64,000 bases of DNA, taken from assembly GCA_964036045.1 (NCBI GenBank), contig OZ038383.1, forward strand, positions 12,726,430 through 12,790,429. The letters are read 5' to 3'. The translations under genes and the position numbers were made by a program. The notes under the pieces were generated by a model. The model saw only the letters and a program-made list of their open reading frames with translations, did not search any database and was not told the DNA's origin. Numbering within the stretch: position 1 is the stretch's first letter; the number at the start of each line of letters is the position of its first letter. This document shows, one piece after another, positions 20,507 to 55,032 of the stretch. Source of the stretch: Eutreptiella sp. 'Long Island Sound 2002' (taxonomy: Eukaryota > Euglenozoa > Euglenophyceae > Eutreptiales > Eutreptiaceae).

Positions 20507-23500
20507 TTACGGTGCTACAGCAGCAACCAAATGGACCAACACGTCCTTGACATCCAAAGAAATATTCTTTTTCTTCAGATAGTCCATCCAGACCGTGGTA
20601 TACCTCGGCACGAAACTGCTCGGAGGCTCCCACGAATCCCTGGATGCGGCGAATCCCTTCCAACGGACTTTGTAAAGCCTCCCCCCAGGCGTGCCCGGGT
20701 CCGGCTTGTCCGCCAGGATCCTCTCAGCGGTGAAGTCGTCGTCCTCACCCTCGTCGTCTGAGTCCACATCGCCGGCCGTGAACTCGAAGGTGACGGGACG
20801 TCCGCTGGGGTCTGGTGCTCGGGGACGAAGCTGGGTATGGTCGCGGTCCAGGATCTTGTTATCCCCCACACGAACCGCATACACATCCTGCCCGACCTTC
20901 CGCACGATTACCCCCGGCACATACCAAGATGCCTGCCGATGCCTGGACAGGACATCCTTGTGGTGCCGCTCCACCCACACGGTGTCTTGGAGAGCATACT
21001 TCTGGACCTTTCCCTGCTTGAAGTACTTGGCCCTCTTGTCATGCTCGTCCTGAAGTGCCTTGCACACCTTGGCCGCCGTGTCGTGCGCCTCAGCCATTAT
21101 AGCGTTCGCCTCCCGGGCCACTTTGCCATGGTTCAACCACGGGAGAGTGCGTGACACTCGATCCCGTAGGAACAGGATACGATGGGGCGACAGTCCAGTG
21201 GGTCCCGGAAGGTCGTGATACGCTTGGAGTACTCTCCACAGCGAATTATACCAATTCCGGCCCGGTTCGTTGATGTGCAGCTGGCGGAACTTCTCGAACA
21301 TCTGCCGCCCGGCCACCTCAGCCCGGCCATTCGACCGGCTGTGGTACGCCACGGTCTTGGCGTGCCGAATACCCATGTGCTTGCACATCGTCTTGAACCA
21401 CGTCCCCACAAATTGACTGCCCCGATCGCTGCAGATGACAGCCGGGACATCAAAAATCGTCAGCCAATGCCTGATCATGGCATTAGCGACGGTCTTGGCC
21501 TGCAGCCCCACTCCATGCTTGTCCTTCTTGTCCTTCTTCTTGGACTTCTTGCCAGGGACCGCCACGATATACCCACTGTGCCTATCCACCGCCAGGATGA
21601 CACAGTCGTAGGTCTCTCCTTCCACGGTGACCTCAGGCATGGCGAATACATCCATGGCCACGGACCGCATAGGGGCCTCCGGTATAGCCGTGTACACCGG
21701 GTTGCCCGCTGTGGAGTGGTTGGGGCTCTTCGTGGCCCGACACACGGCGCAGTCGCTGCAGTACCTATCCAGGATGGCGTAGTACCCCGGAGGGAACTTG
21801 AAACGCCACTCCAGGTCCTGCTGCATCTTGTCTCGGCCAGGGTGCATGAGCTGGGCGCTGTGCCAATGGTCAATGAGCTCCTCCACTCGGTTCTCGGGCA
21901 CCAGCAGCTTGGCCTTGAGGAACAACTTGTCCCCATCCACGGTCAAGCCCTCGGGCCACTCGTCGTCCGACGGGGCGCTCACGGCATTCCAGTACTTGCT
22001 CCAGTGCTCGGATGCCGCGTAGTCATCCGACCAGTCCTCTGTGAGCACCGACCTGACTAGCTCTACAGGGGCCACCATCCATTGCTCGAGGGTTTCCTCT
22101 CGAATACCTTGGACGCGGGCACCCCGGAACTTGGCCAGGTCCGTACGGTTTGCCATCACCACAAAGCACTTGACCCCCTCTTGCTCCATGGCCTTCTCCA
22201 TCTCGATGATGCGCTTGGCCTCCTCGGTTTCCTCGGCGTCCCCATGGCTGGATATGTCCATCCAAGCCTTGCCCGCGGGGTAGGCCCATCGACTGAGGCA
22301 ATCTGCCACAGTGTTGTCCTTCCCCGGGACGTATACGACGCTCAGGTCGAACTTGGCGAACGTCTCGTGCCATCGGGCCCTCCTTGCCGCAGGTCCCGAG
22401 GGGGTGTCGACGTGCTCCTTGTGCCAGCTCTGCAAGGACTGATGGTCCGTGCAAACCACCACCGGTTGCAATCCGATGTGGCCAGACCACTTCCTGAGCG
22501 CACAAACAATGGCGTACGTCTCCTTCTCCCTCGCGGTCCAGGTGCGGCGTTGGCCCTCGGCCAGGATCCGACTCCAAAACGCCACGGGTACGTGTGACCC
22601 GTCGTCCCGAATCTGCTCGAGGACTGCCCCTACAGCATAGTCCGAGGCGTCCGTCCGTAGCACAAATCCCTTGTCCGGGTCCACCAAGAATAGTCCCAGC
22701 TGCCCCAGGAGTCGCTCCTTCAGGCGGCTGAACGCATCTTCGGCCTCAGGGGTCCAGGCAAGCTTCTTCTTGCTCCCCTTCCGGCCATCGAACTTGCCCA
22801 CTTGCAGCATCTTGTGCAGCGGCCCCGACAGTTCTGCATACATTCGGACATAGCCCGAATAGTAGTTGCAGAACCCCATGAAGGATCGGAGTTCGCTTAT
22901 GGTCTGGGGGTTTTCCCAGTGGTGCAGGGACGCCAGCTTCCCAGGCATGGGACGGCGTTGCCCGTGACCAACCACGTGACCCGCGAACTCCACTTCCTTC
23001 ACGAAGAGTGAGGCTTTCGTGGGCTTGCACACCATGTTGTGCTTGTGCAACTCGCTGAGCACTCGGCGCAGATCCCTCTCATGCGCGTCGATGAGCTCGT
23101 CCTCAGTCATGTTCTCCGTGCCGGACCCGATGATGATGTCATCCACGAAGGGATCGGCAAAATCCCGGACAGGACCGAGTAGGTCCTCCATCATGCGCTG
23201 GAAAGCGGCGTTGCCATTCTTGGCGCCCATAGGCACCACTTTCCACTGCATGGGCCCCAGCGGCGTCGACATCGCTGTGCAGGGCCTGGAGTCCGGGTGT
23301 AGCGGCATCTGGTGATAACCGTGTTTCAGGTCCAACACCGTGAAGATCCGCTTTTTCTGTTGTTTTTGGAGGATGGAGTCGATCAGGGGAAGCGAGTACG
23401 AGTCGTGCTCGGTTTGCTCGTTCAAACCCCTGTAATCCACCACCAACCTCCACTCGCCCTTCTCCTTCTTGGGCACGATGAAGGCTGGGCTGGCCCACTC

Positions 23501-25570
23501 ACTGTCGGAGGGTTCGATCCATCCTCGCTCAATGAACTCGGCCAACAACTTCTTCATGGCCTCGGCCCGATCGCCCTGAAGTTGGTACTCCCGATGACGA
23601 TAGATCTTGGGGTTCGGCTTCAGCTTGATCCTCGCTGTGCCAAACCTCCCACGATCTGGAGGGTTCTTATTGGTGAAGCCACTGAATAGCCGCGGATAGG
23701 CATTGATCAGCCTCTCCTTCAGCTCGGCGACCTTCGGGTTCTCCTGGGCCTCTTCAGCCGCTTGCTTCGGTATCGATACAACCGACCGCACTGCGGTGTA
23801 GGCCTCTTCCGGGTCCGAGTCCGACTTCTCCTCGTCCGATATGCCGTCTTCATCGTCGTGGGGCATGCTTCCCACCGATAATCTTCGAAAATTTGCGGCA
23901 TCGGGCTGGTTCTTGTCGCTCTCGGCACCCATTCTTGGAAAATCCCAGGTCGGCGGGTCCGACCCAACCGGACCATCGTATTGGTCCGCGATGTGATCCA
24001 TGACCCTCGCCACGGACTCATCCTTCTCGTACTTGCCGGTGACCAACATCTTGTCATCCCACCAATGCGGAGATGTGACCATGGCCCGCCTCTTCTTGGC
24101 TGCCACACGGTCCTGCATCCCCATCCACATGTAGTTGACGACGTCGTCGATCTCGGCGTGGGACAGGACGTCAATGCCATCAATAGGCTGATCCGTCCCC
24201 TCCTTGGGCTCAAACATGACCTTCATGGGCACCGCCTCCACCCTACCGATGAATGCTTCATCACCCGTGGGCTGGGCTTGCGCCCCATCCACCAGGAAAG
24301 CCTTGGTACCCCACGCTTGACCCGGGGAGGGCATTGATACACCCTTGGCGTCGATGAACAACTCCTCCTCTGGCCCGAATGACATCTCGTTCAGGGTGAT
24401 GGAGTCCAGCGTCGATTTGAGACCCTCCAGCGGACATGGGGTGGATCCTATGCCGGTTATGACCACGATCCCCTTCGCCCCCGCGACGATCTTCTCCACC
24501 GTACGTCTGGTGTTATCCAGGGAGCCATACCAATACATGGGCCCCCACTCCTTCGAACCCCAATGCCTATGCCAGGCTGAGTCTCCTCGATGCCAATGCC
24601 TCCTACACTTCCGCAAAAGTGGGGCATCCCGGGAAGCGAAGACGTCCTTCTCGGGCGCTTCGGCTCCCAGCGTCTGGATCATCCTGGCATACACCTGCGG
24701 CGCCATTCCATACTCCGTGAGCTGAACTCCACGGTCTCCTCTGGACTTGGCACCCACAGCTTGCACCGCTTGGACGATCCGATCCTCTTCCTCAGCATTC
24801 CATTGGGATGATCCGCATGCATAGTCCGTGGACAGCCATGTGAGGCATTCATCATCCTCCCGGACCAGCGTTGCACGATGGGGAAGGGCTCCAATGGCGT
24901 TTGCCACCATGAAGTCATACCCCATGATCATATCCCAATCTGTAATGTCGGCCACATAGAAGTTCCCGGATAGAGTGCTTCTCTTCGCCAGATCAGGGCG
25001 GTTCAAGCGCTCATGTTCCCAGAATTCGGTACTGATAGTGGCCTCATGGGTGCCCCCACCCATGATCTCTCCGTTGGCGACCTTCAGGCGCACCGGTCTC
25101 CGGCTGGGCTGCAGAAGTTCCTCCTTGAACAACCCTCTCCGGACCAGGCTCACCTGGGCACCCGTATCCACCAACACATCCACCACCTTCTCCTCTCGTC
25201 CGCACCGTACTCGCACTTTCAAGTGCAACTGCCGCTCGTCACCATGAGGCGTATGGACGACTCTCACGGCATGCAACTCTAGCACGTCCGGGTGCATCAG
25301 GACTTCAAGGGTATGGTCACGGATGGTGTAGATCTTGGGCTGGTCCTGCCCATCCACGGGGCTCTCCGTGGTCGCTCCTTCCTTCTTGCCATGTCCCGTA
25401 CCCACATGTGCTTCCCTTGGCAGGGCGCTCCAGGGGTTGGGAGTGGCGAAGCTCAGTGGTTTTGGCTCTTTCGGAGCCTTCTTCGGCACCCGATGTGCCT
25501 CTGATTCCTCAGGGATTCCACTGATTTTCGCAGGAGAGACCTCCGAGTTCCCACTCCCGTGGGGGCTCCT
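20507..25570 (-). CDS. Element I pol (copy A): protease, methyltransferase-like domain, RT, RNase H, integrase, chromodomain
   Basis: One intact frame continues directly from the gag UAG. Counting from 25489: an aspartic protease (LVDTGAQVSLV, Asp108); a methyltransferase-like segment (DVFASRDAP, about 260-355); reverse transcriptase about 665-850 (VLDLKHGYH, Asp720; FVDDI, 781-785); and RNase H about 943-1068 (TDASDYAVG, TDHQSL, VADCLSR). The integrase follows, with a zinc site near 1208-1250 and catalytic Asp1280, Asp1355 (CSDRGSQF) and Glu1391. A C-terminal chromodomain (YKVRWKGF, about 1600-1650) ends it. This order and the chromodomain mark a Ty3/gypsy chromovirus. The polyprotein copies element RNA and integrates it, with the chromodomain likely steering integration to chromatin. 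The frame shows no internal stop, but its gag is disrupted, so the copy is probably inactive. The first 539 residues are duplicated at 30842-32529. Confidence 0.95.
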   Translation of the reverse strand, partial: RSPHGSGNSEVSPAKISGIPEESEAHRVPKKAPKEPKPLSFATPNPWSALPREAHVGTGHGKKEGATTESPVDGQDQPKIYTIRDHTLEVLMHPDVLELHAVRVVHTPHGDERQLHLKVRVRCGREEKVVDVLVDTGAQVSLVRRGLFKEELLQPSRRPVRLKVANGEIMGGGTHEATISTEFWEHERLNRPDLAKRSTLSGNFYVADITDWDMIMGYDFMVANAIGALPHRATLVREDDECLTWLSTDYACGSSQWNAEEEDRIVQAVQAVGAKSRGDRGVQLTEYGMAPQVYARMIQTLGAEAPEKDVFASRDAPLLRKCRRHWHRGDSAWHRHWGSKEWGPMYWYGSLDNTRRTVEKIVAGAKGIVVITGIGSTPCPLEGLKSTLDSITLNEMSFGPEEELFIDAKGVSMPSPGQAWGTKAFLVDGAQAQPTGDEAFIGRVEAVPMKVMFEPKEGTDQPIDGIDVLSHAEIDDVVNYMWMGMQDRVAAKKRRAMVTSPHWWDDKMLVTGKYEKDESVARVMDHIADQYDGPVGSDPPTWDFPRMGAESDKNQPDAANFRRLSVGSMPHDDEDGISDEEKSDSDPEEAYTAVRSVVSIPKQAAEEAQENPKVAELKERLINAYPRLFSGFTNKNPPDRGRFGTARIKLKPNPKIYRHREYQLQGDRAEAMKKLLAEFIERGWIEPSDSEWASPAFIVPKKEKGEWRLVVDYRGLNEQTEHDSYSLPLIDSILQKQQKKRIFTVLDLKHGYHQMPLHPDSRPCTAMSTPLGPMQWKVVPMGAKNGNAAFQRMMEDLLGPVRDFADPFVDDIIIGSGTENMTEDELIDAHERDLRRVLSELHKHNMVCKPTKASLFVKEVEFAGHVVGHGQRRPMPGKLASLHHWENPQTISELRSFMGFCNYYSGYVRMYAELSGPLHKMLQVGKFDGRKGSKKKLAWTPEAEDAFSRLKERLLGQLGLFLVDPDKGFVLRTDASDYAVGAVLEQIRDDGSHVPVAFWSRILAEGQRRTWTAREKETYAIVCALRKWSGHIGLQPVVVCTDHQSLQSWHKEHVDTPSGPAARRARWHETFAKFDLSVVYVPGKDNTVADCLSRWAYPAGKAWMDISSHGDAEETEEAKRIIEMEKAMEQEGVKCFVVMANRTDLAKFRGARVQGIREETLEQWMVAPVELVRSVLTEDWSDDYAASEHWSKYWNAVSAPSDDEWPEGLTVDGDKLFLKAKLLVPENRVEELIDHWHSAQLMHPGRDKMQQDLEWRFKFPPGYYAILDRYCSDCAVCRATKSPNHSTAGNPVYTAIPEAPMRSVAMDVFAMPEVTVEGETYDCVILAVDRHSGYIVAVPGKKSKKKDKKDKHGVGLQAKTVANAMIRHWLTIFDVPAVICSDRGSQFVGTWFKTMCKHMGIRHAKTVAYHSRSNGRAEVAGRQMFEKFRQLHINEPGRNWYNSLWRVLQAYHDLPGPTGLSPHRILFLRDRVSRTLPWLNHGKVAREANAIMAEAHDTAAKVCKALQDEHDKRAKYFKQGKVQKYALQDTVWVERHHKDVLSRHRQASWYVPGVIVRKVGQDVYAVRVGDNKILDRDHTQLRPRAPDPSGRPVTFEFTAGDVDSDDEGEDDDFTAERILADKPDPGTPGGRLYKVRWKGFAASRDSWEPPSSFVPRYTTVWMDYLKKKNISLDVKDVLVHLVAAVAP

Positions 25571-25573
25571 CTA
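25571..25573 (-). promoter_or_regulatory. In-frame UAG between gag and pol, element I copy A
   Basis: UAG followed by AGG. The 27 codons between this stop and 25489 contain no further stop, so gag and pol share one frame. The same codon occurs at 32530-32532 in copy B. Programmed readthrough is the likely reading. Confidence 0.75.
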
Positions 25574-30841: not shown

Positions 30842-32529
30842 CTTCGAAAATTTGCGGCATCGGGCTGGTTCTTGTCGCTCTCGGCACCCATTCTTGGAAA
30901 ATCCCAGGTCGGCGGGTCCGACCCAACCGGACCATCGTATTGGTCCGCGATGTGATCCATGACCCTCGCCACGAACTCATCCTTCTCGTACTTGCCGGTG
31001 ACCAACATCTTGTCATCCCACCAATGCGGAGATGTGACCATGGCCCGCCTCTTCTTGGCTGCCACACGGTCCTGCATCCCCATCCACATGTAGTTGACGA
31101 CGTCGTCGATCTCGGCGTGGGACAGGACGTCAATGCCATCAATAGGCTGATCCGTCCCCTCCTTGGGCTCAAACATGACCTTCATGGGCACCGCCTCCAC
31201 CCTACCGATGAATGCTTCATCACCCGTGGGCTGGGCTTGCGCCCCATCCACCAGGAAAGCCTTGGTACCCCACGCTTGACCCGGGGAGGGCATTGATACA
31301 CCCTTGGCGTCGATGAACAACTCCTCCTCTGGCCCGAATGACATCTCGTTCAGGGTGATGGAGTCCAGCGTCGATTTGAGACCCTCCAGCGGACATGGGG
31401 TGGATCCTATGCCGGTTATGACCACGATCCCCTTCGCCCCCGCGACGATCTTCTCCACCGTACGTCTGGTGTTATCCAGGGAGCCATACCAATACATGGG
31501 CCCCCACTCCTTCGAACCCCAATGCCTATGCCAGGCTGAGTCTCCTCGATGCCAATGCCTCCTACACTTCCGCAAAAGTGGGGCATCCCGGGAAGCGAAG
31601 ACGTCCTTCTCGGGCGCTTCGGCTCCCAGCGTCTGGATCATCCTGGCATACACCTGCGGCGCCATTCCATACTCCGTGAGCTGAACTCCACGGTCTCCTC
31701 TGGACTTGGCACCCACAGCTTGCACCGCTTGGACGATCCGATCCTCTTCCTCAGCATTCCATTGGGATGATCCGCATGCATAGTCCGTGGACAGCCATGT
31801 GAGGCATTCATCATCCTCCCGGACCAGCGTTGCACGATGGGGAAGGGCTCCAATGGCGTTTGCCACCATGAAGTCATACCCCATGATCATATCCCAATCT
31901 GTAATGTCGGCCACATAGAAGTTCCCGGATAGAGTGCTTCTCTTCGCCAGATCAGGGCGGTTCAAGCGCTCATGTTCCCAGAATTCGGTACTGATAGTGG
32001 CCTCATGGGTGCCCCCACCCATGATCTCTCCGTTGGCGACCTTCAGGCGCACCGGTCTCCGGCTGGGCTGCAGAAGTTCCTCCTTGAACAACCCTCTCCG
32101 GACCAGGCTCACCTGGGCACCCGTATCCACCAACACATCCACCACCTTCTCCTCTCGTCCGCACCGTACTCGCACTTTCAAGTGCAACTGCCGCTCGTCA
32201 CCATGAGGCGTATGGACGACTCTCACGGCATGCAACTCTAGCACGTCCGGGTGCATCAGGACTTCAAGGGTATGGTCACGGATGGTGTAGATCTTGGGCT
32301 GGTCCTGCCCATCCACGGGGCTCTCCGTGGTCGCTCCTTCCTTCTTGCCATGTCCCGTACCCACATGTGCTTCCCTTGGCAGGGCGCTCCAGGGGTTGGG
32401 AGTGGCGAAGCTCAGTGGTTTTGGCTCTTTCGGAGCCTTCTTCGGCACCCGATGTGCCTCTGATTCCTCAGGGATTCCACTGATTTTCGCAGGAGAGACC
32501 TCCGAGTTCCCACTCCCGTGGGGGCTCCT
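30842..32529 (-). pseudogene. Element I pol N-terminal part (copy B, truncated)
   Basis: Codes for the protease (LVDTGAQVSLV) and the methyltransferase-like segment, then stops at residue 539 where the insert begins, well before reverse transcriptase. The sequence is almost identical to copy A; one change is Ser to Phe in KDESVARV. It cannot make a working Pol. Confidence 0.92.
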
Positions 32530-32532
32530 CTA
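32530..32532 (-). promoter_or_regulatory. In-frame UAG between gag and pol, element I copy B
   Basis: Same UAG-AGG context as in copy A, with pol continuing in the same frame. Confidence 0.75.
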
Positions 32533-33708
32533 GACTTGACTTCCCGCAGCCCCTTCCGGCTGCGATCCGCCAGGACTTCGTCCACCACGTTGCTGGGCTT
32601 TGAGTTCCTCCAACGTCCTCAACATGTCCTCAGCATCCTCCTCGATTGACCTCACTCGTCGGTCTTGGCCAGGTTCACCACCATAGCCTCTTCCTCCGCC
32701 TTTTCCTTGGCCTTTGCCTTGGCCTTTTCCCCCGTCTCCGCCCTTCGCCTTCCAATCGGAAATCCGCTGCTCCTTGGGCTTCTTCTCGGGGTGGGCGGCG
32801 AAGTAGGCCTTCTTGTCCGCCTCATACACCTTGCACTGACGGTGGTCGTGTGCATGGTTGTTTCCCTTGCCATAACAGACCGAGCACCCGTCGTGCTGAG
32901 ACCTGTACTTTCGGAACGAGAGCGGTGGGTTCCCGATCCTCCTTGGCTCTTTGCCCTTCTTGGGTCCCACCCGGCTCCATCTGGACCGTTCCTGCCCATG
33001 GTCCCTCACGTTGTGCGCCACAAACGCGAAGAAATGGGCCTCCTCGTGATCCTCCCGGGACCAGTGGTCTTGGCCACTTCCACTACCATCCTCCGCGGAG
33101 TTGGCCGTGTCCTCCTGGATCTCCCGATGATGGCGGTCTTCTCGGTGGTCTCGTTGTCCATGACCTTGTCGATCCTGCACGTGGGCCTCGTTCTTCGCAT
33201 TGAGCTTTAACTCCACCGTGATGTACTTCACGATCTCGTCCAGGCTCATGCGGGCGAAGATGACCTGCATCCTCAGCGGCTCCCCGCGCCTCCACTCCAC
33301 GTTGTTGAGGCACAGTAACCTTTGCCCCATGGAGTCTCCAAATACCTCCACGTACACGGCGTTCTTCAGTCCCAACATCCGGTTGGGCTCGCCCAGGTTC
33401 CTCCTGAAGAACTCCATGATACCCGCATGGGTATCCTCTGCCGCCACGATCCTCACCGCCACCCGCTTCTTGGCTCGCTTCTTCTCCTCGTCCTCCACTC
33501 TCCTCTTCCAGTTGCCGGGGAGGACGTCCTTCAGCAAGTGGCGGATCTCGCTGGCCTCATTCCAGTCCTCCACCAGCTTGAGGCATCTTCGGTACTTTCG
33601 CAGGTACCGGTTCCACTCCCGGACCCGCAACTCACCGCGGTCCAGCGGCAGCGGGATGGACCACAAGTCCTCCAGCTTCTGGTTCGGAGGGTCCATCCGC
33701 TCCTCATC
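32530..33708 (-). CDS. Element I gag, 3' segment (copy B)
   Basis: Continues gag from the intron-like insertion to the UAG. It includes capsid-type helices (LVEDWNEASEIRHLLKDVLP), the stretch shared with copy A, the Cys/His cluster and a basic Gly-rich tail expected to bind RNA. An open frame starts at 33714 (MEDEERMDPP). Gag forms the particle that packages element RNA. It is one of three pieces of a single gag; the others are 33786-34421 and 62547-63561. Confidence 0.85.
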   Translation of the reverse strand, partial: DEERMDPPNQKLEDLWSIPLPLDRGELRVREWNRYLRKYRRCLKLVEDWNEASEIRHLLKDVLPGNWKRRVEDEEKKRAKKRVAVRIVAAEDTHAGIMEFFRRNLGEPNRMLGLKNAVYVEVFGDSMGQRLLCLNNVEWRRGEPLRMQVIFARMSLDEIVKYITVELKLNAKNEAHVQDRQGHGQRDHREDRHHREIQEDTANSAEDGSGSGQDHWSREDHEEAHFFAFVAHNVRDHGQERSRWSRVGPKKGKEPRRIGNPPLSFRKYRSQHDGCSVCYGKGNNHAHDHRQCKVYEADKKAYFAAHPEKKPKEQRISDWKAKGGDGGKGQGKGQGKGGGRGYGGEPGQDRRVRSIEEDAEDMLRTLEELKAQQRGGRSPGGSQPEGAAGSQV

Positions 33709-34421: not shown

Positions 34422-35130
34422 GGAGTAAGAAAAAGTCACTGCCATGTCTTTCTTGGAGGGCTTGATCCAGGCTAAGCCCCCCTTAAAACCCTTTGTTGAT
34501 GCTAAGACAAACTTAAGTGTTTTTATCTCTGTTTTCTTGCCTAAAGTACACTTTCTCAAAGTAACTAGGGTTGTGACCCTAGCCCCCCATGAAGTTCACC
34601 CCTACCACTCAACTGAGCGGAGGTACCTTCCTTCATGGAGGATACACCGAAATAAATCAGGCATTACATGCTTTAGGCCTTGGAGGTTAAGCCTAGTGGT
34701 CTCCCACCCCAAGACCCCTATACTCAATTGTTTCTACCACTTATTGTGGTCCTACTTTGTAACTGTTTCTGAATGCAGTTGCTTGGCCAAGTCATTTTCT
34801 GTGTGGTCCTGACATCTATGCCCCTCAGTCCTAACCAGCACCATTGCACCCAAAAGAGTGCACATGAAGTGCCTAATGCAACCTCTGAGGCTAGAGTCTG
34901 ACCAATTTTCATATAAAACCTTTTGTATTATCCATTTGTGATTGAATCTATGTGTATAAACCTGCTTTGTCTATCTGCAGCCCTTCTGTGTTACACTGGA
35001 TTCCGAAACCAATCATTGATTCGATCCACATCCTGTCCTTGCTCTACTTGCTGCTTTGGTTGGGGTTTTCAACTACAAAACCTGCAGGACTACATCAAAA
35101 TATCTAGGGCATAATTCAAGGACATCTTTC
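34422..35130 (+). mobile_element. Element II: 5' LTR (709 bp)
   Basis: Matches 61838-62546 at a constant offset of 27416 with about eight substitutions by eye. It is followed at once by a tRNA-Met primer site. It starts GGAGTAAGAAAAAG and ends ATCTTTC, so it lacks TG...CA ends. A 122-codon open frame inside is shared by both LTR copies but shows no domain. Confidence 0.9.
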
Positions 35131-37405: not shown

Positions 37406-38740
37406 GGGGGCGGCTCCGAAGAGGAGGACTTGGTTTTCTGGATCCTCGTGAAAATCGGGGATCAGGTTTTTCGAGTGGTGCTTGATACCGGTGCAACACT
37501 TTCCATAGTGGCCCGGCGCCTGCTTAAGACTTTCAGGAAAACTAAGACAGTGGCCATAAGAGTAGGGGATGGGCGTACCATCCATTCCTTGGGGGGGTCC
37601 GATGTGACTATATGTCTGGGCGACGAAACCGTGACCCAACACTGCAGAGTGTTGGACACTGACGCCTTTGACATCGTCATTGGCACCGATTTTCTATGGA
37701 GAAACCCCCAGGTAAAAATGCTGTCCCTACAGCGACCCTATTCTTTGCACTGCGACTTTGGCAGTGGGCTATTCTCCGTTCCTTTGGAGCTGTCAGGACG
37801 AAAAGAGTCTGGGCTGCGCTACGCAGCCAAGACGAACTATCGTACTGAAAACTACCAACTGGCCCGTCACGTTCTTGAAAATGGACTGGCGGCCCTTCAG
37901 GTAAACCTGGATGAGATCCAGGTGGAATTGTTTGCGAGGCAACAACAGCACATCGTGCAGTTGTACTGCTCGAAACAACTGAACAATGCTTCCCGTTTCT
38001 TCTGGAAAGCAATGGGCCTAGCGTATGCTAACCCTCCCTTCTCCCTGCTCGCGAAGGTTCTAACCAAGATCGCTTATGAGGGAGGAAGGGTTGTTATGTG
38101 CACCCCTGACTGGGGTTGCTCTGGTGAACATGCTTACTGGCGCCGTATGCTAGACCGAATGACCGTGGGAAGAGTGCAACTCCCCGACGGCCCCATCTAT
38201 GTGCGTGAGGACTCAGACACAGCTATGCAGGCCCCTGAGTGGGCCAGTTTCCTGTCCATCATCGATGGATCTCTCAATCCTGTACCCCTGTGTGACCTAG
38301 ACCAGGTGCTACTAAAAGAGGTCATGGCCGAAAATCGTGGCCTGACCCTTTATGATCTCAAAAATCGATCTCCTGAGCACCTATCTGCCACAGTTACAGG
38401 GTGTGAGTCTTCTGATGACTACCTGGAACCTGCAGCTGTGAAAGAGGATGCTGACGACCAACTGTCTGAGATCGCCAGCACTATTCCCTCTGTTGATCCC
38501 AGCTGTGTTGACCTAAAACATAGTGCTTTCCTAGCCCAGCTGTTGCTAGAGGAGGTAGATCTAGAGTCAACCTCTGAACCCGCTTCCCCTGTTGGGAAGC
38601 CAGTGCTACACATGCAGCCTGTGCACACAGGTGAACCCGTGGCCCGGAGTACTGATGCTCTGGCGCGGCCTGCTGCTAATAACATGCCATTGTCTGAGCA
38701 TGACACTCAAGAACTTGTACCTGAAGGCCGAAGGTATTGA
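37406..38740 (+). CDS. Element II pol, part 1: protease and methyltransferase-like domain
   Basis: In frame with gag after one UAG; residue numbers count from 37430. An aspartic protease carries VVLDTGATLSIV (Asp19) and a flap-like DIVIGTDFLW. Residues about 163-245 resemble DNA N6-adenine methyltransferases: ELFARQQQHI, then YANPPFSLLAKVLTKI, then GGRVVMCTPDWG. The NPPF at 201-204 is the classic catalytic signature of amino-methyltransferases. The remainder is acidic linker. Its last 149 bases overlap the next open frame, shifted by +1, so a frameshift is needed to reach reverse transcriptase. The methyltransferase assignment is by motif only. Confidence 0.85.
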   Translation, partial: GGGSEEEDLVFWILVKIGDQVFRVVLDTGATLSIVARRLLKTFRKTKTVAIRVGDGRTIHSLGGSDVTICLGDETVTQHCRVLDTDAFDIVIGTDFLWRNPQVKMLSLQRPYSLHCDFGSGLFSVPLELSGRKESGLRYAAKTNYRTENYQLARHVLENGLAALQVNLDEIQVELFARQQQHIVQLYCSKQLNNASRFFWKAMGLAYANPPFSLLAKVLTKIAYEGGRVVMCTPDWGCSGEHAYWRRMLDRMTVGRVQLPDGPIYVREDSDTAMQAPEWASFLSIIDGSLNPVPLCDLDQVLLKEVMAENRGLTLYDLKNRSPEHLSATVTGCESSDDYLEPAAVKEDADDQLSEIASTIPSVDPSCVDLKHSAFLAQLLLEEVDLESTSEPASPVGKPVLHMQPVHTGEPVARSTDALARPAANNMPLSEHDTQELVPEGRRY

Positions 38741-41700
38741 GCGCCAAGAGCGGCTGCAATACCTCAGACAGACCTGGAAATACTCCATCTGGTCTGAGGA
38801 GGACAATGAGTCCTATACGCTGCCTGATCCTGAGATACCTCTAGTGTATTCTCTACACTATGGGCAGCAATGTCCCCCTGAGTGGGACGATGGTATTGTG
38901 CCTGCCGAAACTGCTGATCGGCATAAAAAGAAAGAACATGGAAAAAGCAACCTCCATGCTGGGGAGGATTTCCTTCAGAAACTCGAGAGTCTTAACCTTG
39001 ACCCCCGCCTGAAGAAACTGCTGATAACCTATGAGGAGGTGTTCGGCGCCTTGCCGCCTCCCCTTTCTTGTAAAAAACTGGTCCAGATGGACCTGAAATT
39101 GAAACCAGAATTCGAAAAGACGCGAGTGAGGCGTCGTCCCTATCCCGCTCCACAGGAACAGGTCGAAGAAATCGAGCGCCAGATCCGAGAATGCATTGAT
39201 GCTGGCCTCGTTGAAGAGCATAAACACGGGGACTATCCCCATCACTGCAGTCCCTGTTTCCTTGTTGCTAAACCAGGGTCGACTGCCCTACGTCTTGTTG
39301 TAGACTATGGTGAGGTCAACAAGAAAACCCAGAACCACTCAGGGAGTATTCCTAACATGGAAAACACCCTGGAGCGTATTGCCAAATGCAGGTATAAGAC
39401 CAAAATGGACAAACGCTCTGGTTTCTGGCAGGTTGACCTAACCGCCGCAGCTCAGGAGCTGCTGGCCTTTATAACCCCTAAGGGTCGTGTCTTCAAGTGG
39501 AAGGTTATGCCTTTTGGGGTGGCAAATGCCCCAGCGCTCTTCCAGGAGCTTATGAACAAAATTTTGTACATACTGAGGCGCAGGCCTCTAGTACAAGAGT
39601 TGATTTCTCGGGGTGCAGAAATGGAGGCTCACATCGACGACCTGAGTTTAGGTACTAATACCAAAGAGGACCACGTCCTTCTCCTCCGTGAACTTTTCAC
39701 CGTCTGTCAAGAAAACCATCTCCGAATCAAACTCGAAAAATGTGAGTTTATGAAAGAGGAGATGGAGCATTTGGGTTTCGACGTGGGGTACGGCTGGTGG
39801 AAACCAGCCGCGTCTAAGATGCAGCCCCTACAGGACATGCAGATTCGCGATGACCCTAAGAAGGGTCTACACGATGTGAGGAGTTTTGTGGGCGCCTGTA
39901 ATTTCTATCGGCGTCACATCCACAATTTTACTTACTCCTCTGCACCCCTCACTGACCTGATCAAGAAAACTACTCCCTGGAGATGGACCTCCAGAGAGGA
40001 AGAGTGTTTCCAGGAGTTGAAGAAGAAGATTGCCTCCTCCAACTGCCTGGGAGTGCCCCGCCCTGAGGGCGAGATACTCCTGATCACTGATGCCAGTGAT
40101 GTAGGGGGGGGAGGTACGATCTACCAATGGCAGGAGCTTAACCCCGCTGAACTAACCCACTGCCATTATCGTACTACTGGACTGAACCGTGATGGTTCGT
40201 TGAAACATGACTATCCTACCAGTGAGTGGCGACTGGTGCCACTGGGACACTGGAATTGGAAATGGAACCAAGCGCGTTCCAACTACAGCACCTATGACCA
40301 GGAACTCCTGGCCGGTATGTTGGTGCTATCGTCACAATCCCGACTCCTGGGATCTAACCCTATTGTCTGGCTGTGTGACCAGGAGCCTGTGAAGTCTTTT
40401 CAGAAGGGCCCACCACCAGAAAAAGCAAAGCTAAAACGATGGTGGACTTACCTGAGCCAGTTCAGGCTGACAGTGCATCATATCCCCGGGATTAAGAATG
40501 AACTGTCTGACTATATATCGCGCAACAACTTCGATGCGCTTATTGGTGAGAGCTCTGAGGCGCTCGCCAAAGAGGCTTTCCAGCGTATGGATGTCCAGCT
40601 TGACCTGTCCATGCGCACTGCCGGAATCCTGGAGGGTTGGAGTCTAACCGACTATCAGTCAGAGTATGAAGAAATTCTCCAAACCCTCAGCACTGGTCTC
40701 GAACCCCGTGTCATTGACGGGCACCAGTGGTATAAAAACAATCAGTACCTCTTCTACGAGGACCGAATTGTGGTGCCTGAGGCACGACTGGATGGGTGCC
40801 TACAGTGGTCCCATCTCAGTTCTGGTCACACTGGCGCTAATCGCTCAGTGGACTTCTTCCGTGAGTGTTTCTACTCTAGTCTAACCATGACTGAACTGAG
40901 GTCGCGTATGCAGACCATTGTGGATGCTTGTGGCTGTCATGCCAGCAAGCAGAGCGACAGTAGGGATAGGGGCCTGATCTCCAGCTTACCCATACCCTAT
41001 TGTGCTAACTCTCTTCTCTACGTGGATTACATCCACGGCCTACCAAGCTTTGGCGGCTATGATAGTTGCCTCGTGGTCACCTGTGGTCTATCTCCCTTCA
41101 CCCGTGTGTTCCCTTGCAATAAGAAAATCACAGGTGAGCAGACTGTGAAAATGTTGGTCGAACAATGGTTCGAACCCTATGGAGCACCTAAGCAGGTGCA
41201 CTCTGATGAGGATGTACGCATCCGCAGTGACACTGGGTGGTACAAACGAGTGCTAAATGCCCTCAACGTGGAGGTAACCACAGGTGTGCCCTATACCCAC
41301 ACGTCTAACCCTCTCTGTGAGAGACAGAACCGTGTGGTGGAGCAAAACTTAAGAATCCTGATGAAACAGGAGCGCACCAAGGACTGGGTACGCCTAGTGC
41401 CCTGGGCAGTGCTGTCCATGAACTCACAGCGGAGCTCTTCTACGGGTTTCACCCCCCACGAACTGTTCCATGGAGGACGACCTGCTTGGTTCTTCAAAAC
41501 CCCCTTTCCTGAGGACTTCAAGAGCCCTGTGGGAGATTGGCTGGAACACAAGCAGTCTCTGGCTAACCAGGCTGGGACTAACCTGAGGCACATTCGTGAC
41601 CGTGAACAGAGCCGACGGAACCGCCTACGGCGACCTGCCAGCTTCAAGGTTGGTGACCTTGTTTTGGTACACCATTCACGCCTACCCTCCTGGCCACGTA

Positions 41701-48428: not shown

Positions 48429-50456
48429 GGGGATGGCAAGCTTCTAAAGTCGCGTGCTCCACGCGACAGAGGCGCCCGGATGCCACGCCCCAGATTATCG
48501 GCCAATGGCAAGCCCCGCCGACGGCCAGCTCGCACTGCGGATGTTAATAGGGTGCTGTCACGTTATCAGTCGCCGGATATCCACGTGTCTCCAATTCAAC
48601 TGGATGAGGCAGGAACCGAAGTCCTCCGGTTCCCGCTAAAGCCCAAGAATCGAAAGACCAACAAAATGGTTGAACTCGTAGTGTCATCAGGCATTCAGCT
48701 TAGTGATTCCCTCAATTTGCCTGAAATCATGGTTCCGGCTTTGGTTGACACTGGGGCACAAATTGAGGTCTTAGCTGGAGAAGAACTTTTCCCAAGCGCG
48801 GCACTGATCGACGCACCCCATCCAGTACAGTTGGTGACTGTAGGCCGTAAGCCCTTGTCAGGTGGTCGTAAGGGTGTCTTGTCTACCGTACGGGTACCGG
48901 TAGAGACACCTGAAGGGTTACGAGTGTTTAAGTGCGTACAAGTCTTCATACATGTGGCCGCCATAGGACCTCGCCTGATATTGGGGTTTCCCTTCTTGTT
49001 GAGGTATGGGTTAGCAGTAGTGCCTGGAAGGGATGCCCTAGTGAGTCTGGATAGTTTCCAGAGAAGGCAGAAGCCGGCTTATCAACATGGGGGTATGTCT
49101 GAGTATGCGCTGGAGGTGGCAGGAGCACATATTCAGGCTGAATATTCCACGGAGTTAGTTCGGCCGCGGTATTTTAAATGGGTGGCACCTGACATCACGC
49201 TGCAGTCGTGTTTGAGTGGCAAACAACATGTTGATAAACGTACCACCAAAGCCCGTAGGTCTTCAGATGCCACCACGGCACCGACGGTCAGCTTTCTGGA
49301 CAACAAGTTTGAATATTTTCAGTCTGATTGTGTCAACACACGTTGTCACCGCCCAGCGCACCTGGTATGGGACCACATAGGTCAAGTGCCCACAGCAGGC
49401 ATGTGTTTTTGGTGTTTTCAGCGATCCTTCGGGGAGCCTGAGCCAGACTGGACTCCTCAAGGGTTGGCTCAACGTAGGAAGGGGGTATCGTACGAACCCC
49501 GTAGGTCAATCTCAGAGACAAAGGTCATCACGATTCCTTCATTATCACGCAGTCTTGCCAACCTACAAGGGGTGGTGGATCTCTCAGCATACACCAACGA
49601 GCAACGCCCCCCTACCCCCACTCGGCGTCCTCGACGTCCTTCAATCCCCATTCCCCCATCAGCCACAGAATCACCGGCCAATCAACAGTCTTTCGGGCCA
49701 GCTACGGCAGCCCCATCATCAGAGTCAGCCGGTCAAGAAGTTTCTCTTCCTCCCTCCCCTCCTCTCTCCTCTCCGCTCTCCCCCCCATGTATGTCTCCTA
49801 CTCTCGTCGAACTCATTCAAGCTCATATTTCTTCAAATCCTCTTCGGGTCAAACAGGTCAGACCAGAATCCATTTTACCAACAAAGGGTACGCCCGGGTC
49901 CGCAGGCTACGAGTTATACGCCGCGGCCGATATTCTCATTCCCTCCGGAGGACAGCAACGGGTACCCACGGGGTTAGCATTCACTACCCCCGCTCTCACT
50001 TACGGTAAGATTCAGGACAGGTCAGGGAACGCGAGCAAGTTAGCGTTAAGGGTAGGGGCAGGGGTAATCGATCACGATTACACGGGAGAAGTCGATATAT
50101 TATTAAGCAATCAAGCACCTCGGGATCATATGGTGCGGCAAGGAGACAAAGTCGCCCAAATGACCCTCGAACTTCATCTCAATCCTTTAGTTCAACCAGT
50201 CTCCGAATTACAAGCCACGGAACGCGGTTCCGGCGGGTTCGGTAGTACAGACACACCCAAAGGTACGGTACCTCCCTCCCAGGGTAAGCCCCACCCCCCC
50301 TCCCAGGAAGAGGGAGTCCAAATCTCTCCAGTTTCATCAAGCACGCTAACCTTTAACTTCTCCATCTCGCGCACAAGAGTACGTCCTCTTGGTGTGCACA
50401 TATCTTACCCTTTGGGTGGCGGCGCACAGGGCTGGCATGATTCAGGCGGGCAGTGA
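48429..50456 (+). CDS. Element III pol, part 1: protease and dUTPase
   Basis: Residues count from 48480. An aspartic protease has ALVDTGAQIEVLAG (Asp about 90) and RLILGFPFLLRYG. A Pro/Ser-rich linker follows. Residues about 455-595 form a trimeric-type dUTPase with all five motifs in order: PGSAGYELYAAAD, GKIQDRSG, VGAGVIDHDYTGEV, GDKVAQMTLE and ERGSGGFGSTD. The Asp of motif 3 and the Gly-rich motif 5 are kept, so it may be active, hydrolysing dUTP and limiting uracil in element cDNA. dUTPases occur in some retroviruses but are uncommon in LTR retrotransposons. The last 68 bases overlap the next frame, shifted +1. Confidence 0.92.
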   Translation, partial: GDGKLLKSRAPRDRGARMPRPRLSANGKPRRRPARTADVNRVLSRYQSPDIHVSPIQLDEAGTEVLRFPLKPKNRKTNKMVELVVSSGIQLSDSLNLPEIMVPALVDTGAQIEVLAGEELFPSAALIDAPHPVQLVTVGRKPLSGGRKGVLSTVRVPVETPEGLRVFKCVQVFIHVAAIGPRLILGFPFLLRYGLAVVPGRDALVSLDSFQRRQKPAYQHGGMSEYALEVAGAHIQAEYSTELVRPRYFKWVAPDITLQSCLSGKQHVDKRTTKARRSSDATTAPTVSFLDNKFEYFQSDCVNTRCHRPAHLVWDHIGQVPTAGMCFWCFQRSFGEPEPDWTPQGLAQRRKGVSYEPRRSISETKVITIPSLSRSLANLQGVVDLSAYTNEQRPPTPTRRPRRPSIPIPPSATESPANQQSFGPATAAPSSESAGQEVSLPPSPPLSSPLSPPCMSPTLVELIQAHISSNPLRVKQVRPESILPTKGTPGSAGYELYAAADILIPSGGQQRVPTGLAFTTPALTYGKIQDRSGNASKLALRVGAGVIDHDYTGEVDILLSNQAPRDHMVRQGDKVAQMTLELHLNPLVQPVSELQATERGSGGFGSTDTPKGTVPPSQGKPHPPSQEEGVQISPVSSSTLTFNFSISRTRVRPLGVHISYPLGGGAQGWHDSGGQ

Positions 50457-51743
50457 GACCGCTGATCAGGGTTCTGCAGTGAACCAAGCCCTGGGGCTAG
50501 TGCAAGGACTTGTATGTTCTTTGTTGCTGGCCTATTCAGACAGCATCAAGGGTCACAATCATGTAGACCCAGCCAACAGTGGCGATCTGTCGGGTACGGA
50601 GCAGTTTCCTCCGGTACCTACACATAAATCCAAGGCCTTGGTCCCAGTACGACACGCTGGACCTGCAATGGGCGTTGGTCTGCCACACAGGGTGGCAGTT
50701 TTGCTTGCTAACACATTAGCGGAGTTCACTGGTACTGAACCAGAGTTGGTTGTAGAGGAGGCCACAGGTAGCATGGAAACCGAGTTACCGAGTGTCAGTA
50801 ACCGCGCCACGGTAGGCCACCCCGGCGCCAACCCTTCGGGGTGGGGATCGGCCCGTAAAAACTCAGCTCAGGTTACCGAGTTGAGGGCGGTTACATGTGA
50901 AACTCTGGCGTTGACAGAGTTAGATCTGTGGGCGGATTCTGAAAATTCAGATTGCGCGACTGATTCTAGAGTCAGTTCTGACATTGCAGCTAGCGACACC
51001 GGCGGTGGTGGGCCGTCCAAGGTGCTACGAAAGAGCACCAAGGCGGTTAACTCCTCATTCCGTACCCATGAGGGTCGAGGCAATATTCGGCATGTTCAGG
51101 CGGCGGCCAGACGCAAAGCGCGGTACAAATGGCTGCGTCATAGGGATGATTTGGCAGTCCGCCAGGATATTGTCCTTCGCATTGAGCGATGGGCTAAGTC
51201 GCTGGTTGACAAGTGTCATTTCCGGGAATTTACGGATGTATTCAGTAGTAAACGGCTTGCTCGTTTCCCGAAATATTGGGATGAGCAAAAGGACGGGTTG
51301 TCACAGCCATGGGCCGGAGAGAACCTTTGGTTACATCCTCCCGATAGGCTGTGGGAGCAAACCGTTCAAAAGTTGAAGTTTCAGCAAGGCCAAGGTATCG
51401 CTATTGTCCCGACATGTAAGGATAGGGATTGGTGGTGGTCACTGAGCGAGGTGGTAGTAGACTGGGTAGATGTGCCGGTCAGTGAACCTCTTTTTGTAGA
51501 TCATGATCGTAAGGTACGCTCAGCCGATAGGGAGTATCGTATAGTTGTAGTAGATGCGCTAGGATGGACTCCTGAGGAGTCACAGGCGGAACCAGCGGAT
51601 ACCGCCGACAAGCAGCGCGCTGTATGGGACTCGACCCATCCCCGCGGGGATTGTGTCGCCCTACACCCGCACGACTGCACAGTTTCCGCTCCCTTTTCAC
51701 ACACACACCCCAAGCCTTCCTTAGAGTCGCTCATGCATGGTAC
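50389..51743 (+). CDS. Element III pol, part 2: methyltransferase-like domain (cut by element IV)
   Basis: The N-terminal 270 residues are linker. Residues about 281-370 closely resemble phage-type DNA N6-adenine methyltransferases: DVFSSKRLARFPKYWDEQKD, then GLSQPW, LWLHPPDRLW, IAIVPTCKDRDWWW. The catalytic NPPY is replaced by HPPD at 316-319, so activity is doubtful; the fold may serve another role. The frame is cut at 51743 by element IV and resumes in the same frame at 53985, across the GGTAC duplication. Confidence 0.8.
51739..51743. other. Left target-site duplication of element IV (GGTAC)
   Basis: GGTAC precedes the left LTR and recurs at 53980-53984 right after the right LTR. Confidence 0.92.
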
Positions 51744-52337
51744 TGTATAACACTTTTGTTTGTGCTGTACTCGGTCTCTTTCAACTTTTCCAAAACCCAC
51801 AAAATCCACAAAGCGTCATTTTGCCTAAGGCCTTGGCTTGCCCAAATCTTCAAACTCTTTTACCGCTCCTTGGTTCTGCTTGCTGCGTTGACCCCACTGT
51901 GATGTCTCCCTCCTTGTTCACCCTTGCACACTTGCACAACGCTCAACACGTACTTGATTCTGGGTCCTGTTCACTGCCGGTGCACTGCACGGGCCATCAT
52001 GTCCTTGACGCTGGGCTCTGCATGCCAGCTGGCGTCGCATGCAGCATTGTACTTCGACGGCAGCCTTGTTATACCCATATTTACATGGAGAGGGGAACTG
52101 GAAACAAACACAACATCGCAAATGATGCACTCAAGAATGGGATATAACCGCAGCAACAATCAAACACTGCAATCTATATTTAATAATAAAAAACCCAACC
52201 AGACAATCATCGAAATCCACAGACTCACTACAAATCTCGATCTCTGCCACTCTGGCGTTTACCATGGCGACGCGCCAAAGGCGCAATCGCGCCAGGGCCT
52301 GCAGCCCTGTCCTAGTTGCCCAGGCCAGCCTATTACA
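51744..52337. repeat. Element IV left LTR
   Basis: Starts TGTATAACAC and ends CCTATTACA. Identical to the right LTR except for about one base. Confidence 0.95.
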
Positions 52338-53385
52338 CTCCCCTCCTAAGACACGACACGGAGCGTGGAGAGTCTGTAAAACAAGTAAAAACTCAATGGT
52401 TGGCCTGGGCAACAAGACCTACAAAAGGCATAACTAGGGGCGTGGGGGCGGGCTGCGGCTGCATGCTTGCTTGCAGAGCTGCAGTCTAGATAATGGAGTC
52501 TTTGCTGGCCTGGGCACCAAAGGCGTCCGGCTTCTGGGGGATACTTATTGGGGCTGGAGAGGAGCTACTCTTGCTCGACCACGCCCCTTGCATACGTCCT
52601 ACCTGGACCACTTCCCCCACCACCCCTGTCGTAGAGGCTGACCCTTACGCGTACCCACAACCACACACAGCACCCCACCAGCCATGCACTCGCCCGCCAG
52701 TGGGTGGGGCCTCAACTAGGCAATCACACACACACACTGCAGCTTACCACCCGCCCATCTACTTCACACCCAGCCACTGTAAGCACCCTTGCCCTGTTGT
52801 GCTGACGCCTGTGGTACTGAACAAAAAAGGCTCCACAGCGACAAACCAGGGCAAAGGTGCATATATATTCCATGCATACATGCCAAACAGCATACTTTCT
52901 GGCGCTGTCGGCGCGTCAATTACAAACTCAAAATTTACATTCCCATCATTCTAAATGGAGCGCCCTCCATTCGCGCTGGCACTGTTCTTGGCGCCCCCTG
53001 GTGCAGGCTGGTCTTCAGTGCCCTCAGTGGCACGACTCCATAGCGCCTGCGGGCACAAGTCTTCAGCGCCTTCGCTGGCGCATGTACTGCACCCTCACCG
53101 GTGCACTCCTTGACGCGTCCACGCTGTCCCAGCGCGCCCTCACTGGCGCACGCTTTCCCCAATGCTCGCTGGCTTCAGTGCCAGCCCCATAGGTCATCCA
53201 GACGTTCGCTGGCCTCACCGCCAGCACCATAAGACCTCAGGACGCTCGCTGGTGCCGTTCTTGAACGCCCCCTCTGCAGGCTGGCCTTCAGCGCCCTCTG
53301 GCGCGGCGTTATAGCGCCTGCGGGCGCAAGTCTTCAGCGCCGTTGCTGGCGCACTCCTCGCGGCCTTCTTCTTGATTGAAGATTT
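52338..53385. other. Element IV interior
   Basis: No coding signal. The right half has repeated short phrases such as GCGCAAGTCTTCAGCGCC at 53046-53070 and 53320-53345, alternating with GCTGGCGCA. Confidence 0.6.
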
Positions 53386-53979
53386 TGTATAACACTTTTG
53401 TTTGTGCTGTACTCGGTCTCTTTCAACTTTTCCAAAACCCACAAAATCCACAAAGCGTCATTTTGCCTAAGGCCTTGGCTTGCCCAAATCTTCAAACTCT
53501 TTTACCGCTCCTTGGTTCTGCTTGCTGCGTTGACCCCACTGTGATGTCTCCCTCCTTGTTCACCCTTGCACACTTGCACAACGCTCAACACGTACTTGAT
53601 TCTGGGTCCTGTTCACTGCCGGTGCACTGCACGGGCCATCATGTCCTTGACGCTGGGCTCTGCATGCCAGCTGGCGTCGCATGCAGCATTGTACTTCGAC
53701 GGCAGCCTTGTTATACCCATATTTACATGGAGAGGGGAACTGGAAACAAACACAACATCGCAAATGATGCACTCAAGAATGGGATATAACCGCAGCAACA
53801 ATCAAACACTGCAATCTATATTTAATAATAAAAAACCCAACCAGACAATCATCGAAATCCACAGACTCACTACAAATCTCGATCTCTGCCACTCTGGCGT
53901 TTACCATGGCGACGCGCCAAAGGCGCAATCGCGCCAGGCCCTGCAGCCCTGTCCTAGTTGCCCAGGCCAGCCTATTACA
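53386..53979. repeat. Element IV right LTR
   Basis: Starts TGTATAACAC and ends CCTATTACA, then GGTAC. Open frames that appear to run from this LTR into the reverse transcriptase are accidental. Confidence 0.95.
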
Positions 53980-55032
53980 GGTACTTCTAACCATCTAGTA
54001 CAACAGGTTTCGCCCATACAGGTCGAATGCCGCCAGATGCGGCGACGGGCACATCGCGAAGCAACCAAACGGGCCAAGTCAGGGGACATCAGTCAGTCAG
54101 AGTCCGAAGCGTCCCCAGGTCCCGATAACTCCAGTATGGAGGAGTCTGATACCATACATGAGCGGCCATTGGTAACTACACCCCCGGTAATGAATGAGTC
54201 TTGTGTGGATAGGTCTAGTCTGGGTCCTAGGGAGATAAGCCAGCATGATTGGGTACAAGGCTACCGCCGCCACATCCGGTCTGTCATCAAGTCGGATGAG
54301 GACTGGGAGGGATGTGAAAACCTCAAAGCCAAAATTATGGCTCGGTATGAAAAAACCGTTTTTAATCCCATTCGCACTCAGGATGTCACCCCGGAAGCCA
54401 TAAAGGCAAGAGGGCCACATTCTACGCTCCACTTGGAGCTCTTGCCTGAACATGCTGGCCCCAGAGCTGACAAGCCCATACGAGCCGTGGGTGAACGTGA
54501 AAAAGCGTTATGGGATAAAATCGTGAAGTTCAAGGACCGTAGCATGCTACGAGATGCAAAAGGGCAGCCACAATGGGTCGCCAGAGCGTTCTTGGTGCCA
54601 AAGCCAGGAAAAAATGATTGGCGGTTGGTCATTGACTACCGTCATCTTAATTCCTGCTTAAAGGGCAACAGTTTTCCGCTGCCTGTCATTGAGGACCAAA
54701 TTGCCAACCAGGAGGGCAATTTTATCTTCTCCATCATCGATTTGGAGGATGGTTTTCATCAAATGCATCTGGAGGAGAGCAGCAAGCATCTTACTGCCTT
54801 CTGTACTCCATTTGGCATTTTTGAATGGAATGTCCTTCCAATGGGTGTTAAGGTGGGGCCTGCAGCCTACCAACAAATGGTCCAATATGAGACACGCAAT
54901 TGTCCTCAATCCCGACCCTACATTGATGACATTCTATCGTCGTCAGGGCGGAATGTTTTAGAGCCGGACAAGCTCGCAGTTGAGCAAAAACAACAACCGG
55001 GAACGCTCAAGAAATACTTTGAGGCGCATTGA
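53980..55032 (+). CDS. Element III pol, part 3: reverse transcriptase
   Basis: Continues the frame of 50389-51743 after element IV. A linker is followed by reverse transcriptase with VARAFLVPKPG, RLVIDYRHLNSCL, SIIDLEDGFHQMHL, LPMGVKVGPAAYQQ and PYIDDILSSSG (the catalytic YIDD). It ends at a TGA (55030-55032) in the middle of the thumb region. The same frame continues for over 1000 codons after it, so TGA replaces a sense codon, most simply CGA by C-to-T. Confidence 0.92.
   Translation, partial: GTSNHLVQQVSPIQVECRQMRRRAHREATKRAKSGDISQSESEASPGPDNSSMEESDTIHERPLVTTPPVMNESCVDRSSLGPREISQHDWVQGYRRHIRSVIKSDEDWEGCENLKAKIMARYEKTVFNPIRTQDVTPEAIKARGPHSTLHLELLPEHAGPRADKPIRAVGEREKALWDKIVKFKDRSMLRDAKGQPQWVARAFLVPKPGKNDWRLVIDYRHLNSCLKGNSFPLPVIEDQIANQEGNFIFSIIDLEDGFHQMHLEESSKHLTAFCTPFGIFEWNVLPMGVKVGPAAYQQMVQYETRNCPQSRPYIDDILSSSGRNVLEPDKLAVEQKQQPGTLKKYFEAH

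Follow-up and report, generated by a model that had tools for sequence, protein, structure and literature searches.

A phage Dam-type methyltransferase-like domain between protease and reverse transcriptase in Ty3/gypsy retrotransposon families of the euglenophyte Eutreptiella

The stretch of DNA analyzed here (the window) comprises 64,000 nt of Eutreptiella sp. 'Long Island Sound 2002' (contig OZ038383.1, positions 12,726,430-12,790,429, forward strand) and was taken from assembly GCA_964036045.1, which has a size of 2.28 Gb. It contains three retroelements, referred to as elements I, II, and III, each with a region resembling the Dam-type N6-adenine methyltransferases of phages. The RT (reverse transcriptase) regions of the three share ~24-37% identity, in agreement with their original description as three separate Ty3/gypsy families. 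The following features were assigned to them:

25031..25189, minus strand: element I aspartic protease (Pfam gag-asp_proteas, E 0.00024; 22.0 bits, below the cut-off of 28.2)
24065..24847, minus strand: element I Dam-like domain region, core ~24278-24655 (BLASTP to families V and VIII; profile score 22.1 bits)
24512..24544, minus strand: element I GPMYWYGSLDN in the NPP[YF] position, motif lost (alignments)
22973..23476, minus strand: element I reverse transcriptase (Pfam RVT_1, 1.2e-27)
31024..31806, minus strand: second copy of the element I Dam-like domain (tblastn)
37448..37699, plus strand: element II aspartic protease (Pfam gag-asp_proteas, 7e-7)
37733..38395, plus strand: element II Dam-like methyltransferase domain region, core ~37856-38275 (Pfam Dam, phage Dam profile, BLASTP)
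38030..38041, plus strand: element II NPPF, amino-methyltransferase catalytic motif (sequence)
39267..39782, plus strand: element II reverse transcriptase (Pfam RVT_1, 3.3e-28)
48480..50456, plus strand: open frame of element III containing a protease motif and a dUTPase (Pfam dUTPase, 1.5e-29, residues 464-590; VDTGA motif)
51046..51648, plus strand: element III Dam-like domain region (phrog_111, phage Dam profile, BLASTP to family IV)
51334..51345, plus strand: element III HPPD in the NPP[YF] position (alignment to phage Dam; HPPD in 7/11 family rows)
51744..53979, plus strand: nested LTR element in element III (594-bp LTRs at 51744-52337 and 53386-53979, TG..CA ends)
54595..54945, plus strand: element III reverse transcriptase (Pfam RVT_1, 5.1e-18)

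The motif strings quoted for the three elements in the original prediction are all present in the long open frames named there, with those of element I falling within a 1660-residue ORF at 20507-25489 on the minus strand (P0003), those of element II within ORF 37430-38740 (P0001), and those of element III within ORF 50389-51750 (P0004). The proposed location of the domain between protease (PR) and RT is borne out by Pfam in I and II, and in III the domain comes after a frame carrying both a dUTPase and a VDTGA motif, with the RT following behind a nested LTR insertion. Pfam finds no protease match in element III and names the dUTPase alone there, leaving the VDTGA motif as the sole sign of a protease; the dUTPase itself lies at 49869-50249, between the protease motif and the methyltransferase-like domain. 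The nested element possesses LTRs that are 99.8% identical, a 1,048-bp interior, and a GGTAC duplicated on both flanks, and it splits the element III frame between the methyltransferase-like domain and the RT. Two relatives of III (P0145 and P0153) have the RT and the domain within one protein.

The Ty3/gypsy order of PR, RT, RNase H (RH), and integrase (INT) is shown by Pfam in element I, and among solved structures a PDB search places the element I ORF nearest to Ty3 Pol (E 5e-64). The III family profile likewise has Ty3 RT or Pol as its closest solved relative in a PDB sequence search. Pfam matches to rve and to the integrase zinc-binding domain occur in I and III, while the INT of element II was recognized only by tblastn to the frame of element III (2.6e-20). 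No clean pair of flanking LTRs was found for I, II, or III. A tyrosine recombinase (PF00589) was not found by Pfam in any of eight ORFs scanned, and the domain is located before the RT rather than behind RNase H, where a DIRS element would carry its methyltransferase. The label of chromovirus, also part of the original prediction, has a borderline Pfam Chromo match in I in its favor (25.0 bits against a cut-off of 25.1) but is not matched by any Pfam chromodomain in II or III.

The 5' part of element I pol, domain included, recurs at 30832-32448 on the minus strand (tblastn, residues 1-539, 99.4% identity), and 2,475 bp of element I occur twice, at 23880-26354 and 30839-33313, on the same strand with 99.8% identity, the duplicates flanking a very G+C-rich 212-bp tandem array (27808-29971). 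In element II, gag and protease share one frame and are split by a TAG at 37403-37405 with GGGGGC after it; in P0052, a relative, a tyrosine takes the place of the TAG, and both read-through and mutation are possible. A 709-bp repeat of 98.9% identity is found just upstream of element II gag (34422-35130) and 27 kb away at 61838-62546, but its ends lack the TG start and CA end, and no LTR pair is evident. Between elements II and III lies an open frame of 951 residues (43809-46664, plus strand) in which Pfam identifies no confident domain. Elsewhere in the window, a helicase C-terminal domain with a weak RecQ zinc-binding match (3975-5123, minus strand) may represent a host gene, and scans of the window for Rfam families (gathering threshold) and tRNAs were empty. 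A test for the spliced leader of dinoflagellates gave a negative result. Both I and II appear to be abundant in the genome, as one cluster of element I relatives comprises 4,545 member sequences and the apparently very high copy number of element II is indicated by 34,808 first-look candidates, 95 of which were scored.

The proposed kinship with phage-type N6-adenine methyltransferases is supported by sequence, by way of intermediate families. Within the window, the Pfam Dam family (PF05869) matches element II with 16.4 bits (E 0.0073) and element III with 15.4 bits (E 0.015), both below the 28.1-bit cut-off, and gives no match to element I. A profile built from 16 phage Dam proteins scores 34.6 bits against III and 9.6 bits against II, values reached by 0/2000 shuffles in either case, and only 2.8 bits against I, where 7/2000 shuffles score as high. 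Among PHROG families, the one holding the phage T1 Dam (phrog_111) matches III at E 3e-6, with no PHROG match to I or II. The alignment of III to phage Dam is in register through D-x-x-S, DGLSQ-W, and W-L-[NH]-PP. When 50,697 phage records were searched by tblastn, III gave weak matches to 86 records at E <=10, the best at E 0.01; among the best 20 of these 86, 18 matches lie on genes with a methylase or methyltransferase annotation, one is to a record lacking annotation, and one is to a record labeled hypothetical. The same search with element II returned one irrelevant match only. NCBIfam gave no match to the three window segments but did match P0055, a relative of II, to phage_N6A_met at 0.035. 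No methyltransferase was among the matches of PDB sequence searches, prokaryote genomes yielded no relatives of the III family, and viral contigs scanned with II, III-family, RT, and II-family queries yielded no relatives. AlphaFold2 models of II (25 rows) and I (14 rows) reached a mean pLDDT of 34 and 32, respectively, from alignments of close relatives only, and are uninformative on the predicted Rossmann-type fold.

A Pfam Dam search of the 2.28-Gb genome returned 3816 candidates, of which 150 were scored and 149 matches listed; among the listed matches, 103 exceed the Pfam Dam cut-off directly and six more do so with in-frame neighbors, for a total of 109. Of 14 control genomes subjected to the same search, only E. 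coli responds. The 30 best loci (L072-L101) all belong to one family, IV, and seven further stretches were read, consisting of two more copies of IV (L102 and L107) and one copy each of five other families, V to IX. The Dam scores of IV (40.4 bits in L102, 39.2 in L107), V (36.4, L103), VIII (29.9, L106), and IX (31.3, L108) lie above the 28.1-bit cut-off, and those of VI (25.5, L104) and VII (22.5, L105) lie below it. An RVT_1 match follows the domain in the same ORF in L102-L107, accounting for five of the six families, while none is present in the ORF of L108 (IX). Upstream of the domain, four of the six families show a protease or a stretch derived from one. In VII and IX this is a Pfam protease, and in IV and V it is a stretch like the element III protease frame (5e-16 over 123 residues and 9e-12 over 40 residues, respectively), with the DTG motif not intact in the IV copy read and only the end of the stretch included in the ORF of V; in VI and VIII the ORF starts too near the domain for a protease call. 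The observation originally made in the window is thus confirmed, and the phenomenon is wider than first stated. That sister families with the catalytic motif exist in the same genome is beyond what a reading of the single window could show.

The homology of the three window segments to one another follows from these families, as they link all three. Compared directly by BLASTP and hhalign, I, II, and III give nothing significant: the BLASTP values are weak, at 0.078 for I-III and 0.007 for II-III (as is the 0.044 of III-VI), I-II is not significant, nor is III-VII, and the hhalign score of II-III is equaled by 2/60 shuffled profiles. Run on the II-III pair alone, phmmer gives 0.0007 with a score of 5.4 bits. 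Single BLASTP pairs with the other families are considerably stronger. Element I matches V (1.65e-7), VIII (3.8e-6), IV (7.9e-5), VII (3.9e-4), and VI (8.5e-4); II matches VI (1.6e-32), V (9.6e-13), and VIII (1.6e-9); and III matches IV (2.7e-26), V (9.1e-23), and VIII (2.3e-11). Profiles give a similar picture for element I. A profile of II and III scores -1.2 bits against it (156/2000 shuffles and 15/144 control windows as high), one of Dam and II 2.4 bits (8/2000 and 9/144), and those of Dam and III and of Dam, II, and III 6.2 and 8.2 bits, each with 1/2000 shuffles and 0/144 control windows as high. A profile of II, III, and IV-VII, built without I, reaches 22.1 bits over residues 20-193 of I, while the best of 2000 shuffles reaches 5.1 (0/2000 as high) and the highest score among 144 overlapping control windows cut out of these elements is -0.1. 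In light of this BLASTP chain and the profiles, we regard the segments as almost certainly members of the phage Dam-type PF05869 superfamily, situated between PR and RT.

The unconvincing direct comparison of I, II, and III would be expected if the three were unrelated segments sharing short motifs by chance, an outcome that the original prediction had named as fatal to it, but the links through families IV-IX already refute this, and with the shuffles and control windows also speaking against it, its probability is negligible. The history of the domain can be approached through trees. The RT tree divides the families into {II,VI,VII} and {I,III,IV,V} with support of 100/100. In the domain tree, which took eight of the 16 phage Dams and left out DIRS and bacterial Dams, the seven gypsy domains I-VII stand apart from the phage Dams (100/99) and {II,VI,VII} is regained (100/99). 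The long-branched element I groups with II, VI, and VII in the domain tree (85/89) and with III, IV, and V in the RT tree (100/100); this conflict may be an artefact, because the branch of I is long, or may reflect an exchange in the ancestry of I. One old acquisition followed by inheritance with the RT is the simplest reading of the trees, and the presence of {II,VI,VII} in both agrees with it. Separate gypsy lineages could instead have captured a Dam independently at this one position of pol. The age and divergence of the families, the repeated uptake of cytosine methyltransferases by retrotransposons (PMC5890265), and the shifting position of I would fit such captures, yet the separation of gypsy domains I-VII from the eight phage Dams, in a tree holding no DIRS or bacterial Dam, and the group common to both trees make them improbable. 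A further possibility concerns the relation to DIRS elements, as the domain could have been exchanged or co-inherited with the DIRS methyltransferase and moved from behind RNase H to before the RT. Family VIII carries the stretch IVPNWPRQSWF, which is similar to DIRS domains, and this resemblance would favor such a link. Two papers also favor it, one reporting that the DIRS pol domain is found by the same Pfam family (PMC3783388) and the other that DIRS RT/RH is near Ty3/gypsy (PMC3266345). We consider a connection with DIRS a serious candidate, although its chances fall somewhat short of even.

The state of the catalytic motif differs between families. NPP[FW] is kept in II, V, VI, VII, VIII, and IX and is not found in I, III, and IV, though these are conserved. 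That II alone among the window elements keeps NPPF, as first noted, is correct, and the altered motifs of I and III are conserved within their families. NPPF is present in 94/121 aligned rows of element II relatives, in which ELFAS (82 rows) is commoner than the ELFAR (5 rows) of the window copy. In the element I family, MYW[YH]GS occupies this position in 13/14 rows and PP is absent; the alignments left out 2/15 relatives of I and 3/13 of III that were too short. Family IV has NAPF in 29/30 loci and NTPF in 1/30. NPPF occurs in V, VII, VIII, and IX and NPPW in VI, in the one copy read of each, and the families with NPP[FW] include domains with <40% mutual identity; the share of six families in nine is biased upwards, as IV-IX were found with the Dam profile, which favors motif keepers.

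Measures of selection are available for several families. Between the window copy of II and VII, dN/dS is 0.10 for the domain, 0.10 for the protease, and 0.21 for the linker, with dS at 1.3-1.8, near saturation, and VII found by its Dam score. Among 29 further copies of II (28 distinct, with the window copy left out and loci from both strands used, 30/30), pN/pS is 0.05 for the domain, 0.03 for the protease, and 0.10 for the linker with no stops, ratios that are lowered by the picking of copies by protein score. The domain of the II lineage is constrained like the protease. For family IV, where 18/30 loci could be used on both strands and 12 were too short, the 18 copies picked in the same way give pN/pS values of 0.27 for the domain, 0.72 for the linker, and 0.48 upstream, and hold 7, 1, and 3 stops in these parts, respectively (11 in 380 codons compared). 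Pairwise identity in the III family is 0.79-0.84 in the core blocks (region residues 81-140) versus 0.50-0.51 in the first and last blocks of 20. Families I and II show uniform conservation over the whole region (0.83-0.95), which is of little weight.

These data bear on whether the domain acts as an enzyme at all. It might have no enzymatic role in any gypsy family, being an old Dam-derived fold that serves as an RNA/DNA-binding part or spacer near the RT, with NPPF a trace of incomplete decay. Three of the nine families (I, III, and IV) have an altered motif and are still conserved, and the DIRS version has no known function according to PMC3266345, both of which would suit such a role. It appears rather unlikely to us, however, given that NPP[FW] is present in the copies read of six of the nine families, though the Dam profile chose them, and that the domain of the II lineage has the same dN/dS as the protease. 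Catalysis in the NPP[FW] families is about an even bet. In I, III, and IV the domain may serve pol without catalysis, as a nucleic-acid binder or a structural part, because the catalytic asparagine or its neighbors have changed yet the rest of the domain is conserved; for I and III, the odds of a non-catalytic role are likewise balanced. For the complete reading, in which a Dam-type domain built into Pol and inherited in at least nine families is catalytic in some of them and non-catalytic in I, III, and IV, we lean slightly in favor.

A comparison of this domain with known systems shows both likenesses and differences. The phage Dam proteins (PF05869, TIGR01712; T1 Dam, phrog_111) share the D-x-[FA][AS]-S strand, the W-x-NPP[YF] motif, and the hydrophobic strand that follows, and Pfam Dam matches families II-IX, above its cut-off in IV, V, VIII, and IX. 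The sequences described here differ from phage Dam in belonging to a retrotransposon polyprotein and, in I, III, and IV, in having no intact NPP[YFW]; in addition, it is chiefly the first half of the Pfam Dam model that is covered by the best profile matches. DIRS1-like retrotransposons have the same Pfam family inside a retroelement pol, where it lies behind RNase H and its function is given as unknown (PMC3266345, PMC3783388). DIRS elements run RT-RH-MT, carry a tyrosine recombinase, and have neither protease nor integrase, in contrast to PR-MT-RT-RH-INT here. DNA methyltransferases carried by retrotransposons have also been described as KnitGypsy-Dnmt3 in Klebsormidium, the one gypsy family among them, and as SymbioDIRS-Dnmt3 and SymbioLINE-Dnmt, from DIRS and LINE elements of dinoflagellates. 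These are presented as cytosine C5 enzymes that derive from eukaryotic genes and have no structural relation to Dam, and the DIRS adenine enzymes are named as a possible analogue (PMC5890265). Orchid Ty3/gypsy elements are reported to carry an extra domain related to N6-adenine as well, but this is an m6A RNA demethylase (PMC9289625). The fungal chromoviruses PosPlaTy3-5 have a dUTPase between PR and RT, as does element III (PMC2864245); the word methyltransferase is absent from that paper.

The position of the domain in Ty3/gypsy pol was regarded as unfamiliar in the original prediction. A Dam-type domain between PR and RT of Ty3/gypsy was not found in open-access titles and the starts of abstracts (the best 20 of up to 383 per query). 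One sentence is ambiguous: PMC6338049 places DAM in DIRS and DCM in both gypsy and DIRS, and later speaks of elements from the two clades that encode DAM and DCM as one set, which is readable as Dam in gypsy.

A mechanism can be proposed. The Dam-type domain would be translated with PR and RT and then packaged with the template, and it may be released, or kept with the RT, in the virus-like particle, where it would act on the product of reverse transcription. In the NPP[FW] families it could methylate adenines of the cDNA, which would then be marked or protected prior to integration, in parallel to what has been proposed for the cytosine enzymes in PMC5890265.

Taken together, these observations extend Dam-type domains from the DIRS order to Ty3/gypsy and to a new position in pol. 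In its most far-reaching form, which we put forward as a tentative and rather doubtful proposal, a whole branch of Ty3/gypsy would have its own working N6-adenine methyltransferase beside the RT, placing 6mA on cDNA before integration; it would share a common stock with DIRS, and in some lineages the dead enzyme would have become a structural cofactor of the RT. The families look very abundant, and the occurrence of families with and without the catalytic motif in one genome provides a natural test of the function of retroelement adenine methyltransferases. If active, these domains would be a source of 6mA in a eukaryotic genome other than the host's own enzyme.
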